Assembly (NCBI GenBank): GCA_006226425.1
Contig: SBGX01000031.1
Coordinates: 1 to 64,000 of the forward strand
Length of the DNA stretch: 64,000 bases
From: Bacteroidota bacterium
Lineage (GTDB): Bacteria; Bacteroidota; Bacteroidia; Flavobacteriales_D; Crocinitomicaceae
Direction: 5' to 3'
In this document: one piece after another, positions 3,901-11,805 of the stretch
How the letters are laid out: every line of letters begins with the position of its first letter
Numbering within the stretch: the stretch's first letter is position 1
The notes under the pieces: model-generated
What the model saw: the letters and a program-made list of their open reading frames with translations, nothing else
The model's database searches: none
What the model was told of the DNA's origin: nothing
Position numbers and translations under genes: made by a program

Positions 3901-5991
3901 ATCAACAGAAATGCTTTTGAGTATAAAGTCTGTCAATAAAAAATTCAAATCGTACTCTGATTCATTAGGTGCAAACTTAAATTTTGGAGTCATGGCCTCC
4001 CAATTGGAACCATCATCTTTTGATCTATAAAGTCTAAATGGAAAATCTAAATTAGCTTCCGAAGCGTAAATAAATGCCGGAAATTTTTCGCAAATTGCAA
4101 CTGCGTGAATTCCCTTTGCTTTATAGTATGGGTCTATGTTAGGGACGCCAATTTGAACTATTTTTTGAGTGTTTTCCAGAGCTTTTCTACATAACCCAAC
4201 CCGGCCATTATTGAGACCTACTATGAATTTTTCAGGATACTTTCTATACGTTTTGAATCTGCCAGTAAGAGCAACCCCATCTACAGCAAATGAACCTCCG
4301 GCAATTAATGGATTTAAGGTGCTTACATTATCTATAATAGGTTTACCTGTTGGGCCGGCCTGTCCGATATATGATGAGGGGTAGTGCTTTTGAATCATAA
4401 TTGCTTCTGTCTCACCCAACGATGAAATGATTCTTGAGATACCTGTATTTACGTCAGAGTATCGCACATCGTTATCTTGAAATCCATAGACTACTCGTTC
4501 TAATTTGGGGTAATAATCAAAATTATGAATCATTGAAATCGAAAGGTTTCCGTTTAAGGAAATAACTTTTGGTTCTGGATCTAGTCCGTTTTCAACGATT
4601 ACAATTCCCCCATCATTTCCGTAAATAAGTCTCTCTTTTCCATCTTGCGTCAAGATTAACTGAGCTGCTCGATAGTCATCATGAACTCCAGGACGATTTT
4701 TGTCTCCTCTCAACACTTCCCATGTTTTGTTATTAATGTTCCACCTTTCCAATGGAAGATTTCCCAAGTAAAAAATGTCGGGATTGGTGGCAGATACAAC
4801 AATTTGATTTTTGTCAAGATTCTCATCTACTGGAATGGGATTTTTTGGAGCTGGGTATCCATTACTAATATTTTCAAAACTGTCGCCAGAATCTTTGGTG
4901 ATATACGTTCTCTTATTTTGTCCTGACCTGACTTGGACTACAAATCGCCCATCTACTTGATTTGAGAAAAAAATGCTGCCAGGGGAAGTTGTTGGTTGAC
5001 CTATTATGTTATTAATATTGTTCGGTGCCCAAGCTACTGAAATCGAAGCGGAATTCACATCAATGCTTGCCTTAAAAAAGCTGCAATTTGGAGCGTAAAG
5101 ATCGTCTGAAATCATAAATAACCGATCTTCCAAAACCAAAATGCGATGCATAATGTTGTTTCCTGGAGGAAAGTCATTCGGTAAACCAGCAGATTCCCAA
5201 TGCAATCCGTAATCAGTACTGTACAACAATTCTTGCCATCCTGCAGCAAAAACTAAACCAGGAATGCTCGGATGAAAACAGAGCCAATTAATTTTTGTCC
5301 ATTGTTGATTAACTTCTTGCCACGTTTCTCCTGCATCATAACTAATAATCAATCCATTTCCAATATACTCTTTTTCGTAACCTGTAATGGCTAAAATTGT
5401 ATCTGGCTTGTCTGGCGGCGATACAATTTGTTTTATTCCCAAAATTGGGAAGTTAAGATTGTCGGTTACACTATACCAGTGTAATCCAGAATCAGTAGAT
5501 CGAAAAATACCTGACGTATAAGATCCACATAAAAAAACATTACTTTTTTGAGGATGATTATAAACACCATCAACCCGTCCACCAAAATGGCGACCGTTAG
5601 GGTACTTGGTTGAATCGTCGATGATATTTACTGGACCATTACTTATCCAATTTGAAGGGTCATTTTGGCCACATACCAATGAAGAATTATATATTCCCTT
5701 TAGGGAATTTTCAAATGGAGTCAGATCATAATTTGTTCCGCCTGTAATATGATATTTAGGGAGCCTATATCTCATCCATCTTTCTGCCTTTTTCTGTTCA
5801 TGCCAAAATGTCGAATCTGTTTCTCCCATTAGATCATTATAATTCTTATAGATTAGTGAGATAGGAATGTTTGACCGCAAATGTTCGGGCCAATCCTTAT
5901 ATAAATAATCTGGTGCACCGATTGGTCCATACTGTCCCAGTATAGTTGAACAAACAAAAAGTGCGATAAATGAATTAATCAGTTTTTTCAT
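925..5991 (-). CDS. Large T9SS-exported protein: sortilin/Asp-box propeller plus beta-helix
   Basis: This 1688-residue protein has a signal peptide (residues 1-19, ending ...CSTILGQ). It then has at least six Asp-box repeats of the S-x-D-x-G-x-x-W type (STDSGLHW at 165, then SYDAGETW, STDYGLHW, TKDSGDSF, SKDDGSNW, SSDGGENF), which mark a VPS10/sortilin-like ten-bladed propeller. From about residue 870 to 1250 it has short N- and G-rich repeats typical of a right-handed parallel beta-helix, then a charged helical stretch. The last 75 residues (VPNPNQGQFEI ... GIYLIEVS ... LLIIE) are a type A T9SS sorting domain. It is therefore probably exported across the outer membrane and anchored or released at the surface. 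Ligand and function are unknown. It is the first gene of a pair with the overlapping gene downstream. Confidence 0.9.
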   Translation of the reverse strand: MKKLINSFIALFVCSTILGQYGPIGAPDYLYKDWPEHLRSNIPISLIYKNYNDLMGETDSTFWHEQKKAERWMRYRLPKYHITGGTNYDLTPFENSLKGIYNSSLVCGQNDPSNWISNGPVNIIDDSTKYPNGRHFGGRVDGVYNHPQKSNVFLCGSYTSGIFRSTDSGLHWYSVTDNLNFPILGIKQIVSPPDKPDTILAITGYEKEYIGNGLIISYDAGETWQEVNQQWTKINWLCFHPSIPGLVFAAGWQELLYSTDYGLHWESAGLPNDFPPGNNIMHRILVLEDRLFMISDDLYAPNCSFFKASIDVNSASISVAWAPNNINNIIGQPTTSPGSIFFSNQVDGRFVVQVRSGQNKRTYITKDSGDSFENISNGYPAPKNPIPVDENLDKNQIVVSATNPDIFYLGNLPLERWNINNKTWEVLRGDKNRPGVHDDYRAAQLILTQDGKERLIYGNDGGIVIVENGLDPEPKVISLNGNLSISMIHNFDYYPKLERVVYGFQDNDVRYSDVNTGISRIISSLGETEAIMIQKHYPSSYIGQAGPTGKPIIDNVSTLNPLIAGGSFAVDGVALTGRFKTYRKYPEKFIVGLNNGRVGLCRKALENTQKIVQIGVPNIDPYYKAKGIHAVAICEKFPAFIYASEANLDFPFRLYRSKDDGSNWEAMTPKFKFAPNESEYDLNFLLTDFILKSISVDHIDSNLIYCGLGGVYSQNGEVINERFRVIKSSDGGENFIDYSQGLPGLPIDFLLTVDSDQQLVFCATSVGIYYRDNTMSQWECFSKNLPKVEITALKFDYCTNTLMASTYGRGFWKTPVPFATGTSFQENITENTTWDEPRQIANDIVVKTGNTLTIKSFVLFEKDRKITVEPGAKLNLEGATLTNYCDDFWAGIVVQGNSNLPQNQNNQGFVQMNNTTIENAKEALRFWEPNNYASTGGYVFATNSKFINNWRSAEFIYYHDFSTSDPGVEIKNRSFFTNCEFAWDNSYLGENSIAPAVTMYHVNGVQFNACHFEDQRISVIQNPVLGTSGIGSLDASFVVQGTLKNPTLNQIPSDWYDEGKYNVSTFKNLRIGVEASNATSLAQPKIDQSHFANNHHGLIITSVDNLLASRNKFELNWRGGILMDNCTAYHVEGNEFVGAGLKDQRTGVLTINSGTEDNQIYRNHLRHLHVGNVAQGVNGNDESEEILLSSGLEWNCNRNEGGRIDFMVTIDDLNPEFGEGVRPFQGSGDQVAANVFSQNLTPGAQSGDFHISSTDNNILTYFSSNKPDEIPELVSGLVLTIQTNNVRKCDSKLGSEKGNPGFVDSLGLGGLVTEIKVVTDEIKLRNKLLHIQLQLGDQTELHDLVSSLNKTNRLEIKNALMSASPFLSEKLLRELGEHPSSVFPHAWYKDVVLANNEVARNNGFMAFLKNKPEALPEGLYLEIMNKRSQLTERGRMELEILNLKTQKENLSNRLLSHEMAHPDHIDWLSYENRLKDRDHVLLQMEETDFQLGRSNKDEATQRLNALEASAQNMNSLWNQRSTEDYVLVKNYVMSLLNDQGAIRTLTESEIADLEYMATHFVGRGAKQARNILCFFEGRCETVSLNLPTTKAQQAQDKNLSVEAITEQPSTVKIVPNPNQGQFEIKTPEYCELKSLKLYNTSGQEVPYAINHQGNLHTVKLENPRKGIYLIEVSCSDQQSYRERLLIIE

Positions 5992-6237: not shown

Positions 6238-6888
6238 TTAGACCAAATTGTTTTGAATAGCATATTTAACGATTCCAACGGTACGATTGACTCCTATTTT
6301 TTCCATAACATTCTTGCGGTGACTCCGGACCGTATGAATACTAATTCCCATTATTCTTGAGATTTCGGTTTCGGATTTTTCTTGATAAATCAGTTTGATC
6401 AATTCCAACTCCCGTGCAGTTAGCTTTGTCTTTAAATCTCTTGGACTAAGTTGTTGTGCAAATTGAACCGAAAGTAATTTCTCTTTTTGATAAAATTCGT
6501 TGAAGTAAAATCCAGAATCATTTACTTCTTCGATTGCCTTGATTAATACGTTTGCATCTATGGACTTCGATATAAACCCGTTTGCACGATGTTCATAGGC
6601 TCTTTCTATTAGATAGTCCTCCTCAAAAGATGTCAAAAAGATAACTCGACATTGAGGATATTTGTCTCGAAGGAGTGCGGTGCATTCAAAACCGTCCATT
6701 CCAGGTAGAAATATGTCCATTAGGATGACTTCAGGAATATTCTCTTTAAGGTTGATTTCATCTAAGAATTCGTTACCGTTTTTAGCGATTACGGAAATTT
6801 CGAAGTGATTCACTTCTCCCAGTAAAAGGACAAGGCCATCTCTGAGTAATTCATGATCTTCAACAATTCCAATAGTGATTTTTTTCAT
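6238..6888 (-). CDS. NarL/FixJ-family response regulator
   Basis: A two-component response regulator of 216 residues. The receiver domain (about 1-120) has the acidic pair E10/D11, phosphoacceptor D58 (VILMDIFLPG), the conserved Thr/Ser (FLTS) and the Lys of FISKS. The C-terminal LuxR/GerE helix-turn-helix (about 155-215) reads LTARELELIKLIYQEKS ... ISIHTVRSHRKNV. The reading frame extends to 6921, but ATG at 6888 fits the family start (MKKITIGIVEDH) and has GGGAG just upstream, so I chose it. No histidine kinase is adjacent. Its partner is probably an unlinked 7TMR/TPR-type kinase, as is common in Bacteroidota. The leader contains the nested palindrome at 6926-7043. Confidence 0.93.
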   Translation of the reverse strand: MKKITIGIVEDHELLRDGLVLLLGEVNHFEISVIAKNGNEFLDEINLKENIPEVILMDIFLPGMDGFECTALLRDKYPQCRVIFLTSFEEDYLIERAYEHRANGFISKSIDANVLIKAIEEVNDSGFYFNEFYQKEKLLSVQFAQQLSPRDLKTKLTARELELIKLIYQEKSETEISRIMGISIHTVRSHRKNVMEKIGVNRTVGIVKYAIQNNLV

Positions 6889-6925
6889 AGCTCCCAAAAA
6901 AAAACGAGTGCGGAGCCTCATTCAC

Positions 6926-7043
6926 TGCCTACAAGGTATCGCCAGACACCCCACCGCAAATAAACAAAGCAACCGCACCCATATCGGGAGCGATAGCCCA
7001 TTCATTCTTGCGGTGAATTAAAAACTGGCGATTTTTGAAGGCA
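6926..7043. other. Nested inverted-repeat element (structured leader RNA or miniature mobile repeat)
   Basis: Three pairs of complementary arms are nested about one centre: TGCCT (6926-6930) with AGGCA (7039-7043); ATCGCCAG (6938-6945) with CTGGCGAT (7025-7032); and CACCGCAA (6952-6959) with TTGCGGTG (7008-7015). The 48-nt centre can fold further (GGGAGCGATAGCCC or CCCATATCGGG). Transcribed on the minus strand it would end about 37 nt before the response-regulator ATG. It has no coding potential and matches no riboswitch I recognise. It could be a cis-regulatory RNA, a small RNA, or a MITE/REP-like repeat. The sequence alone cannot separate these. Confidence 0.55.
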
Positions 7044-7177
7044 AGACAAATAGCTGCGCTACTCTATAATATGTACTTAATTTCTCCTTATAGTTGAGTT
7101 TTGTTCAAACTTAGGAAATTAACCTAGATCCGGCAAATTCACTTGAAAAAACGTATGTATTTCTGTATGTATAAAGC

Positions 7178-7227: not shown

Positions 7228-7300
7228 TGATCCCGCTGGGGCTCGAACCCAGGACCCATACATTAAAAGTGTATTGCTCTACCAGCTGAGCTACGGAATC
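7228..7300 (-). tRNA. tRNA-Lys (anticodon TTT)
   Basis: A 73-nt cloverleaf read on the minus strand. The acceptor pairs GATTCCG with CGGGATC (one T-G pair), with discriminator A. The D arm is GCTC/GAGC, the anticodon loop is CTTTTAA with anticodon TTT, and the T loop is GTTCGAGCC. CCA is not encoded. A TATATTTG box on the minus strand (7350-7357) lies about 50 bp upstream and may be its promoter -7 element. Confidence 0.97.
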
Positions 7301-7445: not shown

Positions 7446-9794
7446 TTAAAACTTATAGCTTATCCCTATACTGGGCAAAAACGGGAATTGATAAATCTCT
7501 TCATTCGTCACCCGATTCTTGTAAAAGATGTTTTTTCGGTCATACAGGTTTGTCACCGATGCGATCAACTCCAAATTTGTTTTGTTCTTAAATTGGAAGT
7601 TTTTCTTCACCGTCAAATCCATACGATGATAATACGGTAATCTCTGACTGTTAAAGTCTCCCAGCACCAGACTTACGTTGGAGCTATTACTTGTATTGAT
7701 ATTCGTTGAAATTCCATCTGAAAAATCTTCACTCTGGAATCCTCCCGCCGTTGGCGTAAATGGCAATCCGGACCCCAGGTTCCAGCGTAAACTCACTTCC
7801 AAAGTCTTCTTCTTTCCAAACAAGTAGGTCGTTACCATATTCACGTTGTGACGACGGTCAAACACCGGAAAATACGCATTCAAACCATCCCAACGATCCG
7901 AATACCCCAATGAATACACTCCCCAGATGAACCAGCGGTTGCGACTGTATTTCAACAACAAGTCAACCCCCATCGATTGTCCGGTCTCAATGATAAAATC
8001 CTTCTTATAGATATCGTCAATATCACTGAACTCTGCTACGTCATCGTAAATTTTGTTCTGGTTCAGGTTACTCAACTGTGTAAACCACTTCTGATAAGCT
8101 TCCAGGTTCAAACTCCAGTATTTTGTGATATCCAGCTCCATCCCCACAATGGCATGCCAGGAATACTGAAGGGCATTCCTTACGTCACGCACATTTCCGT
8201 TGCGATCCACAAATGATTCCTGGAAATTTGTTGGTGCAGACAGCAATCCGTTAAACAGGTTCACGATATCTCTATCCGAAGAAGCCGATGTGAAGTTCTG
8301 TGAGTAACGTCCTCCCGACAGTTTAAAGCGAAGTTTATCGGAAGCATTGTACTTCATTCCAAAACGTGGCTCCGCGGAAACTGCAGATTGGGAAGGATAG
8401 GCCTGCACCCGGAATCCTGGTTGAATCACAAAGCGGCCCTTGATCACCTTGTAATTCAGGTAACCTCCCATCTCGATATTGAAGTTATTGTCTTCAATTT
8501 TGTTTTCGGCTTCGTTATAAGTCAGGTACTTGGTGTTGAATCCGTTAATATTCAATCCCAGATCCAATTGTCCTTCGTTCTTCTGAAAATAGGTGAAATC
8601 AAATCCCAACTCAGCCCCTCCGATCGAACTTGTTCTTTCAGGTGCGTTCTGCTCCAGGAAACTAAGCGCATATTTCGACATATTCAAATGTCCCCGAATG
8701 AATACTGGTGAACCGGCAGGAATCAAGACAAAGTTCATCCCTCCTCCTGATTGTGTCCAGTTTAGATCAGCCAGGTTCACATAATTGACCTGGTCACGGT
8801 TGCTAAATCCAAAAGCGCTAAACTTAGATCCTCCATCCGCGTTAAACGTCAGTTTTCCATACAAATCCGTAAAAGAGAATGGCATTCCGTCTCCATTATT
8901 TACGTTCGGGTACAATGGTTTTGAGGTGTAATCCAGCAAGGAGTGTTTGGAAGAAAAAACATAGGATGCCGTGCTTGGCTTTCCGTCTTTTCGTTTGCCA
9001 ATAGGTCCCTCCAGCACCAATTTTGCCAGAAATGGGCTTACAGAAACTTTTCCCCCGTTCTTCTTACGGTTTCCATCCCGATAAGTAATGTCCATCACCG
9101 AAGAAATTCTCCCTCCATATTTGGAATCGAATCCCCCTGTATAAATATCTACGTTCTTCACCAACTCAGTTTCAAAAATGGAGAAGAAACCAATCGAGTG
9201 GAAAGGCGTGTATATCGTCATTCCATCCAACAAAATCTTATTCTGAATCGGTGTACCACCCCGGACATACAACTGCCCGCCCTGGTCACCAGTCGTTACA
9301 ACCCCTGGAGTCACACTAAAGGCCCCAATCACGTCGTTCTCAGCCCCCACACTCGGAATTCGCTCCAATCCTTTTTTGTCCAGTTTGATCTTGGACATGT
9401 TGACCTGATTGCGCTTTCGCTTTGCCTCGGCAGAAACTTCCACCTCCCCCAAATCAACGATGGACTTCGCTTTTTTCAGGTTAAATTTCACATCAATGAT
9501 CTGATTGTCCCGCTCAATTTTGACTCCTTTGGTAATCGTATCATATCCGCTACTTTCAATACGAAGTTCGTATTGCCCAACAGCCAGCTTCGGAACCGAA
9601 AAGAAACCGTTGACATCCGTCACTGCCCCGTAGATGTTACCCGTTCGGGAAGAAACCACTTTTACTTTCTGGTACAGGACAGGCTCTCCTGTTTCATCTT
9701 CATAAACGAATCCACGAACTGTTGCGGACTGTGCACGCAAAGCTGTGACTCCCAACAACATCACCAGGACTAAAGTCAACTGTTTCAATTTCAT
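7446..9794 (-). CDS. TonB-dependent receptor with N-terminal carboxypeptidase-like domain
   Basis: A 782-residue outer-membrane receptor. It has a signal peptide (1-21, ending ALRAQ), then a carboxypeptidase-regulatory-like domain (about 24-105: GFVYEDETGEPVLYQKV ... GFFSVPKLAVGQYELRI). The plug domain (about 130-240) includes GGQLYVRGGTPIQNKILLDG and is followed by a 22-strand barrel ending in the usual terminal Phe (GISYKF). It imports or binds a large ligand at the expense of TonB/ExbBD energy. No SusD partner is adjacent, so it is not a standard polysaccharide-utilisation pair and the substrate is unknown. It is monocistronic by spacing and lies 108 bp after mazG on the same strand. Confidence 0.93.
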   Translation of the reverse strand: MKLKQLTLVLVMLLGVTALRAQSATVRGFVYEDETGEPVLYQKVKVVSSRTGNIYGAVTDVNGFFSVPKLAVGQYELRIESSGYDTITKGVKIERDNQIIDVKFNLKKAKSIVDLGEVEVSAEAKRKRNQVNMSKIKLDKKGLERIPSVGAENDVIGAFSVTPGVVTTGDQGGQLYVRGGTPIQNKILLDGMTIYTPFHSIGFFSIFETELVKNVDIYTGGFDSKYGGRISSVMDITYRDGNRKKNGGKVSVSPFLAKLVLEGPIGKRKDGKPSTASYVFSSKHSLLDYTSKPLYPNVNNGDGMPFSFTDLYGKLTFNADGGSKFSAFGFSNRDQVNYVNLADLNWTQSGGGMNFVLIPAGSPVFIRGHLNMSKYALSFLEQNAPERTSSIGGAELGFDFTYFQKNEGQLDLGLNINGFNTKYLTYNEAENKIEDNNFNIEMGGYLNYKVIKGRFVIQPGFRVQAYPSQSAVSAEPRFGMKYNASDKLRFKLSGGRYSQNFTSASSDRDIVNLFNGLLSAPTNFQESFVDRNGNVRDVRNALQYSWHAIVGMELDITKYWSLNLEAYQKWFTQLSNLNQNKIYDDVAEFSDIDDIYKKDFIIETGQSMGVDLLLKYSRNRWFIWGVYSLGYSDRWDGLNAYFPVFDRRHNVNMVTTYLFGKKKTLEVSLRWNLGSGLPFTPTAGGFQSEDFSDGISTNINTSNSSNVSLVLGDFNSQRLPYYHRMDLTVKKNFQFKNKTNLELIASVTNLYDRKNIFYKNRVTNEEIYQFPFLPSIGISYKF

Positions 9795-10743: not shown

Positions 10744-11805
10744 GTGGCTCGTTTCCTGACCCTCATATCTCTCCTTTTATTCACGAACTGTGCTCTGGCG
10801 CAGCATCGAAATGTTTACCTCGGAGTCCGATACAAACGTGGTTTTCTGATCGCACACCGCCCGATTATGAATCATTTGCCACGCGAGCATACCAATGCCG
10901 TTGAAGTGAATGCCATTTTCACGAGCGACGGTCATCGTAACTGGCATGAACCAATGAAACACCCCTATTGGGGCGTCACAGCTTTGTGGACCACTTCTGG
11001 AAATAACGCCATTCTTGGATCGCATTTTGCTTCCTATACCTACCTCATGTACCCTTTCATCCGGCTTGGAAAATCAAGTCTGCTGGGACGTATTGGTACA
11101 GGAGCCTCCTTTTCCCCCAAGGTTTTTGACCAACAAAACAACCCCAAAAACATTGCTATTGGCTCACATGTCAATGCCCTGGTGAATTTTGCTTTGCTCT
11201 ACCAATTCACAGGAGACAAACACCTTTGGAATTTCGGACTGGATTTCACCCACTTGAGCAACGGGGCTTCCAAATTTCCAAACCTGGGGATCAATCTTCC
11301 CTACCTGAGTCTCGGTTATGCGTATCGAATCAAATCGCTAAGCGATCGTGAAATCGCTACACCCGGATATTCCAGTGACTGGAAGTTTCAATTGATCGGG
11401 ATCACTTCCATCAAAGACATTAATCCCATTGGCAGCAGACGAACTCCTGTTTTTGCACTCAATGCCTCCACCCAACGCATATATAAAGTTGGAGCCGGAT
11501 TGGAAAGTGGGCTGGACATCAGCTACAAACCAGCCATCGATTCTTACAAACCTGTTGTCTACAAAGAGAAACAGTCCTTGATTCAACTGGGTCTATATAG
11601 CGCTTACCTTCTCACCCTGGACCGACTGCAATTTGTTCTTGGGATGGGATTCTACATTCGAGATGAGTACAATCCAGATGATCATACCTATCATCGGATC
11701 GGCTTACGTTATCGCGTGAAAGATCATGTCAAACTTAATCTAACGCTGAAGTCTCACTGGGGAAAAGCGGATTTTATGGAATATGGAATAGCTTATGAGT
11801 TTTAG
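10744..11805 (+). CDS. PagL-like acyloxyacyl hydrolase (lipid A deacylase family)
   Basis: A 353-residue outer-membrane protein starting at GTG, with a signal peptide (1-19, ending CALAQ). The family signature H170-L-S172-N-G is the His/Ser part of the PagL active site. Pseudomonas PagL (LpxR-unrelated) trims the 3-position acyl chain of lipid A. In PagL the third catalytic residue is a Glu 12 residues after the Ser, in a 'PNPGIE' context. Here the aligned stretch is PNLGIN, so Asn184 replaces it. Alternating hydrophobic strands and a C-terminal ...YEF support a beta-barrel. Its last 11 bases overlap the next gene, so the two are probably cotranslated. Deacylase activity is inferred and uncertain. 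Confidence 0.8.
   Translation: MARFLTLISLLLFTNCALAQHRNVYLGVRYKRGFLIAHRPIMNHLPREHTNAVEVNAIFTSDGHRNWHEPMKHPYWGVTALWTTSGNNAILGSHFASYTYLMYPFIRLGKSSLLGRIGTGASFSPKVFDQQNNPKNIAIGSHVNALVNFALLYQFTGDKHLWNFGLDFTHLSNGASKFPNLGINLPYLSLGYAYRIKSLSDREIATPGYSSDWKFQLIGITSIKDINPIGSRRTPVFALNASTQRIYKVGAGLESGLDISYKPAIDSYKPVVYKEKQSLIQLGLYSAYLLTLDRLQFVLGMGFYIRDEYNPDDHTYHRIGLRYRVKDHVKLNLTLKSHWGKADFMEYGIAYEF

Follow-up and report, generated by a model that had tools for sequence, protein, structure and literature searches.

A palindrome preceding a response regulator gene of a Crocinitomicaceae bacterium was found to belong to a covarying family of elements in Bacteroidota. We lean, with moderate confidence, toward the view that the element belongs to an undescribed class of cis-acting, switch-like 5'-leader RNAs; its transcription, the occurrence of both states, the direction in which it acts, and any ligand were inferred. 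The family itself, the covariation of helices P2-P5 and P1, pseudoknots PK1 and PK2, and hairpin P7, the position before open reading frames (ORFs), and the promoter box were shown. A conserved and covarying RNA that lies directly before ORFs, in fixed orientation and linked to a promoter, is best read as a cis-acting leader, and a common tail with two covarying, exclusive partners suggests a switch.

The element in the window and its copies in the same genome

The window comprised 64,000 nt (positions 1 to 64,000 of the forward strand of contig SBGX01000031.1; GCA_006226425.1, Bacteroidota bacterium, Crocinitomicaceae). The original prediction, made from the sequence alone, had described a 118-bp palindrome with three nested, perfect arm pairs of 5, 8, and 8 bp, which ended 37 nt before the regulator ATG and was not attributable to chance. 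These claims held: all three arm pairs were present and perfect (Table 1), the inner end of the palindrome preceded the minus-strand ATG (6888-6886) by 37 nt, and no shuffle folded equally well. The z score against shuffles was -4.75 for the fold of minus strand 6880-7080, and -5.70 for that of minus strand 6898-7064 (-70.8 kcal/mol).

The element was longer than the 118 bp originally described. It also includes the outer helix formed by 7057-7064 and 6905-6912, the apical hairpin, and a downstream stretch that extends to the start codon. In the alignment of the copies from the same genome, it begins at GAGTAGCG (7064) and finishes in the T-run (6896-6904). The palindrome is the core of a larger and conserved element of about 170 bases, read as a knotted 5'-leader RNA that extends to the start codon and whose transcription is inferred.

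Table 1. Features of the element and the following gene in the window.
Feature	Position	Strand	Basis or remark
Arm pair, 5 bp	6926-6930/7039-7043		sequence
Arm pair, 8 bp	6938-6945/7025-7032		sequence
Arm pair, 8 bp	6952-6959/7008-7015		sequence
Structured leader RNA (model match, 167 nt; transcription inferred)	6898..7064	-	covariance model E 2.8e-35 (copy belongs to the training set); fold z -5.7
Promoter box TAAGTTTG, fitting the Bacteroidota -7 TAnnTTTG	7106..7113	-	about 41 nt upstream of the element; sequence
5' hairpin P0 (TAGC-GCA-GCTA)	7051..7061	-	overlaps the P1 5' strand; compensatory variants in other copies
P1 5' strand GAGTAGCG	7057..7064	-	partner is the 3' tail (6905-6912) in one putative state
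P2 5' strand	7035..7044	-	partner 6926-6934; includes the 5-bp arm of the original prediction
P2 3' strand	6926..6934	-	sequence and family covariation
P3 5' strand ATCGCCAG	7025..7032	-	partner 6938-6945
P3 3' strand CTGGCGAT	6938..6945	-	sequence and family covariation
P4 5' strand	7008..7017	-	partner 6952-6960
P4 3' strand TTTGCGGTG	6952..6960	-	sequence and family covariation
Apical hairpin P5	6973..6999	-	3' strand GGGTGCGG (6973-6980) doubles as tail partner in PK1
3' tail GGCTCCGCAC	6908..6917	-	GGCTCC with GGAGCT at the ATG (PK2); CCGCAC with the apical strand (PK1); or tail with the 5' end (P1)
U9 run	6896..6904	-	immediately 3' of the tail; sequence
Possible P7 hairpin	6879..6903	-	U-run with the A-run after the ATG; loop GGGAGCUAUG (6886-6895); sequence
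Following gene: response regulator (Response_reg + GerE), 216 aa, complete	6238..6888	-	domain search

In the window copy, the register of P1 was shifted by 2 nt. The P7 loop GGGAGCUAUG contained the PK2 partner, the Shine-Dalgarno-like GGAG, and the start codon, and the GGAG is predicted to pair with the tail. This placement of P7 around the ATG is a possible arrangement for the window copy; most copies have P7 before the ATG. The best match of the regulator among the same-genus genomes examined was 36% identical. With an in-frame ATG within the leader tail (6919-6921, minus strand) as its start, the regulator would be 227 aa long, but the domain start is better matched by the ATG at 6888.

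A BLAST search of the element against its own genome identified three places, namely the window, C32:24355-24494, and C10:24477-24619. The copies outside the window were approximately 75% identical to the window copy, and all three were located directly upstream of a gene encoding a GerE (LuxR-type) domain. Each also lay just after a tRNA gene on the same strand: Lys-TTT (window 7228-7300), Arg-ACG (L011 5714-5788), and Arg-CCT (L012 5864-5937). A link to tRNA genes as such was rejected, being seen in 3/3 copies of this genome and in none of 57 other loci scanned.

Covariation of the long helix, the pseudoknots, and the competing helices

A covariance model (R1) was constructed from an alignment of seven copies of the order, and a second model (R2) from 100 copies. 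Covariation was evaluated with 100 non-redundant copies, filtered at about 82% identity with closer copies removed. For P2, P3, P4, P5a, and PK1 together, 93.4% of cells were paired (62.0 ± 0.6% when shuffled), double changes were found in 34 of the 36 pairs, and the covariation score was 0.757 versus 0.188 for shuffled alignments, a signal that was lost on sliding by 1-3 columns. Double changes were present in all eight pairs of P2 (96.2% paired), P3 (98.1%), and P4 (95.3%). Since P2-P5 were built into R1, the alignment is biased towards them; PK1, PK2, and P7 were absent from R1. Despite the identity filter, shuffles and the swap tests described below remove kinship only in part.

A chance palindrome, or a cruciform at the DNA level without RNA function, might be proposed instead, as the plus strand of the element also folds (-58.2 kcal/mol, z -6.8). 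Any palindrome folds on both strands, which accounts for this, and the minus strand is the more stable of the two (-70.8 kcal/mol). The explanation is contradicted by the family-wide covariation, and also by the pseudoknots and the linkage to promoter and ORF, and can be all but excluded.

PK1 was formed by the apical 3' strand (GGCGTGG in most copies) and the complementary 3' tail (CCACGC). In a swap test, own tails scored 21.2, compared with 18.0 ± 0.24 for swapped tails (0/300), and for the 16 copies whose tails were unusual, the score was 21.0 with their own apical strand versus 14.4 with other apical strands. PK1 was kept despite tail changes, in types such as GCATGG/CCATGC, GGGGTGG/CCACCCC, GTGCGG/CCGCAC (the window), and GCGCGG/CCGCGC. 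PK2 joins the part of the tail immediately 5' of the PK1 strand to a segment located about 25 nt past that strand (49 distinct tails; 13.3 versus 11.2 ± 0.31 when swapped, 0/1000). P7 is a small hairpin whose loop contains the PK2 partner segment; it mostly lies shortly before the start codon, and the P7 stems of other copies were likewise supported (12.1 versus 9.7 ± 0.24, 0/1000). Some copies were without clear PK2 and P7, for instance those whose downstream gene encodes a small protein and has its ATG 10-20 nt past the T-run.

The tail also pairs with the 5' end of the element to form P1; examples identified by eye were ATCAGCG/CGCTGAT, AATAAAGCG/CGCTTTATT, and AGAAAAGTG/CACTTTTCT. P1 covaried according to pair counts and an anchored swap test (own 5.04, swapped tails 3.81 ± 0.12, 0/1000), as did its outer part alone (1.88 versus 1.13 ± 0.12 swapped, 0/1000); this test depends on an alignment fitted to P1. 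Because both need the same tail bases, P1 and PK1 are mutually exclusive. The 5' strand of P1 can form a local hairpin, P0, for which compensatory variants were seen by eye (AGGC-GTAA-GCCT and TAGT-GTAA-ACTA) and the count was weak, only modestly above the shuffled value (76/100 versus 59). The apical strand also pairs locally, forming P5b. Summed helix energies were near-equal, with medians of -17.5 kcal/mol for P5b plus P1 and -16.9 kcal/mol for PK1 plus P0. As these sums include neither loop nor pseudoknot costs, they show plausibility only. The case for two exclusive folds rests on the covariation of both P1 and PK1, their common tail bases, and the near-equal summed energies, without solution data.

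Genomic context and distribution

A same-strand ORF was present downstream in 87 of the 88 copies of the first set, and the lone exception was cut by the end of its locus. The distance from element to ORF peaked at 40-50 nt, and a T-run followed the tail in nearly all copies. TAnnTTTG is the known -7 consensus of Bacteroidota. The motif string, which occurs in PMC4747536 and PMC7366714, was found within 120 nt upstream of 69 of the 100 non-redundant copies, compared with 7.4% of background windows. In L024 and L029, dyads differing per copy were observed near the promoter box, upstream of 1501 (CGTATCATT...AATGATACG; GTACTAT...ATAGTAC), and these are possibly operators.

The RNA might alternatively be a stand-alone, trans-acting small RNA that ends at the U-run, with the downstream ORF as a separate unit. 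The own promoter box, the compact fold closed by P1, and the helix followed immediately by the T-run, as in an intrinsic terminator, are in line with this. On the other hand, the narrow distance to the ORF was retained in nearly all copies while the identity of the ORF changed, and PK2 and P7, which covary with the tail, lie beyond the T-run, arguing against a small RNA as the only product. We consider this alternative unlikely.

The proteins encoded downstream were diverse, including LamG and Por-secretion-tail (T9SS-type) proteins, GerE and response regulators, a type III methylase, a receiver-only regulator, LytTR, a TonB-dependent receptor, a sigma-70 region 2 protein, an endonuclease, and phage cargo. 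The downstream genes lacked the functional coherence expected of a riboswitch. Signal-peptide-like starts, called by a simple rule, were enriched downstream (49/95 versus 24/160 in the background). Specificity for response regulators was rejected, as the downstream genes vary, and so was a link to defence genes, since 60 downstream proteins, when scanned with PADLOC, yielded mainly a single methyltransferase.

Small proteins of one recurrent family (54-87 aa) were encoded directly downstream in Pedobacter/Mucilaginibacter and in the family of the present genome (L138, L143, L148, L154, L049, L050, L063, L074, L076, L089, and L132). This family weakly resembled the C-terminal domain of the RNA polymerase alpha subunit (Pfam E 0.0005-0.03, below the curated cut-off). 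In a further subgroup (L188, L191, L192, L207, L212, and L213), the RNA was located 220-290 nt upstream of an ORF for a TonB-dependent receptor or receptor-like protein, a spacing far longer than elsewhere.

In the family, R1 matched 48 of the 240 genomes searched; the corresponding counts were 54 of 399 for the order, 91 of 395 for the class, and 51 of 395 for the phylum, with 11 of these last lying outside the class. With R2, 41 of 149 class genomes matched, with 1-8 copies per genome (maximum 8). The RNA was missing from most genomes of the sampled groups. The specificity of the models is judged from E-values and from the large number of genomes lacking a match, without a negative control outside the phylum. 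Hosts named in a pattern scan were Chryseobacterium, Pedobacter, Mucilaginibacter, Sporocytophaga, Spirosoma, Flavobacterium, Faecalibacter, Chishuiella, and Soonwooa. A collection scan yielded 12 viral contigs carrying the RNA, although BLASTN against plasmids and phages gave no match.

On the phage-like contig L163, a copy (8353-8534) followed tail genes and a DNA methyltransferase gene; on L171, a copy (11421-11585) was placed between a preceding endolysin gene and a following HSDR_N endonuclease gene (PHROG 4225). In these two contigs, the element lies 3' of structural or lysis genes and 5' of cargo-like genes. On a third, L165, a copy (5667-5813) was found beside a thymidylate synthase gene. 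Two tandem copies on the same strand, approximately 125 nt apart, were observed in L195 (1775-1933 and 2058-2220).

The patchy spread, the unrelated downstream genes, the phage-gene neighbors, and the tandem copies of L195 would suit a MITE/REP-like mobile element or portable cassette, moving at the DNA level and with a structure that serves transposition. The original prediction had named many copies in one genome as the mark of such a repeat. That check was run and does not support it: there were only three divergent copies, about 75% identical, in the genome itself and at most eight in any genome seen, so near-identical dispersed copies were not found. Further, the single orientation to the ORF, the own promoter box, and the compensatory changes and pseudoknots suit an RNA, although no empty-site comparison was available. 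A mobile element is very unlikely.

Comparison with known RNAs and proposed mechanism

The element matched none of the 4227 families of Rfam 15 at the gathering score in scans of the whole window, 13 homologues, and 20 further loci, and permissive thresholds gave no match to the element in the element region and 6 homologues. Flavo-1 (RF01705), 6S-Flavo (RF01685), Bacteroidales-1 (RF01693), and Pedo-repair (RF01715) are likewise structured RNAs of Bacteroidota from comparative genomics (PMC2864571); neither these nor other Bacteroidota motifs of that work were matched by the element in the Rfam scans. One Flavo-1 match, in L040 at 1025-1112, was apart from the element at 1501-1668. The GUCCY-hairpin motif (PMC2864571), which is not in Rfam, has been reported in Bacteroidetes with unclear RNA status and is not listed as a switch. 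Many tails of the present RNA contain a GUCC reminiscent of the motif's name; identity of the two is unlikely but not excluded, the alignments not having been compared. No description of the RNA was found in the literature searched, in which large candidate sets (e.g., the supplements of PMC8040213) were not compared in detail, and it may already have been described under another name.

The original prediction had preferred a cis-acting structured leader without a recognizable riboswitch core, and had proposed an Rfam search, Flavo-1 and other Bacteroidota motifs included, and a search for compensatory changes in homologues. Both were run. No Rfam match was obtained, and compensatory changes were abundant; together with the position before genes, these results support the preferred reading. 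Two points differed from it: the RNA is not confined to response regulators, and it belongs to a family spread across the phylum, with pseudoknots and a competing helix.

Riboswitches with pseudoknots include the preQ1, SAM-II, and SAM-V classes. Like these, the present RNA is a conserved structured 5' leader before ORFs, with pseudoknots of the 3' tail, a competing helix that shares a strand, and expression signals at its end. In terms of structure and position, it meets the riboswitch criterion of a conserved structured RNA in 5' leader position, with transcription inferred. Unlike them, it matches no such family, is larger, precedes functionally incoherent genes, and has no known ligand. 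Leader attenuators with an intrinsic terminator consist of a helix and then a U-run upstream of an ORF. The present RNA similarly has a helix directly before a U-run upstream of an ORF, but both of its alternative helices, PK1 and P1, precede the run, and another interaction showing covariation is located 3' of the run. The U-run may terminate transcription or serve as a linker; as both helices precede it, the sequence alone does not decide.

As the best explanation, we propose that the RNA would be transcribed from its own promoter and fold into the long helix P2-P5, with the 3' tail as a strand shared by two exclusive partners. In putative state A, the tail would close the molecule with the 5' end (P1), leaving the apical hairpin P5b intact. 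In putative state B, the 5' end would form P0 and the tail would dock on the apical strand (PK1), opening P5b. Through PK2, the adjacent tail segment could also kiss the loop of P7, the small hairpin located at the start codon or ahead of it. A signal, whether ligand, protein, or folding rate, would probably shift this balance and set the output of the next gene, either through termination at the U-run or through access to the start site. Weighing against this scheme, incoherent downstream genes are unusual for a metabolite riboswitch, and termination alone does not separate the states, as PK1 and P1 both precede the U-run. Given the incoherent genes, a global signal or a protein is favored.

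As a variant of this explanation, the signal could be a protein: an RNA-binding protein conserved in Bacteroidota would hold one fold and thereby repress or activate a regulon. The unrelated downstream genes, the several copies per genome, and the enrichment of exported proteins suit a regulon over a metabolite sensor. In contrast, the absence of the RNA from most genomes of the sampled groups speaks against it. This variant remains possible but is less likely than not, and no protein partner has been identified.

The switch-like leader can also be read more boldly, as a phylum-wide class in which one tail would choose between P1 and PK1 and report through the PK2 kissing contact at the start codon, providing a portable control module for accessory genes such as those for surface proteins, regulators, and phage cargo. 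We hold this extension tentatively, as slightly more doubtful than not. Hundreds of loci, culturable hosts (Chryseobacterium, Pedobacter, and Flavobacterium), and precise arm mutations are ready for testing. The contrast between a conserved RNA and unrelated downstream genes raises the question of which global signal unites these genes. If true, a strongly covarying structured leader in roughly one-quarter of the sampled class genomes (R2), without an Rfam entry, would represent a substantial gap in what is known of bacterial RNA regulation.
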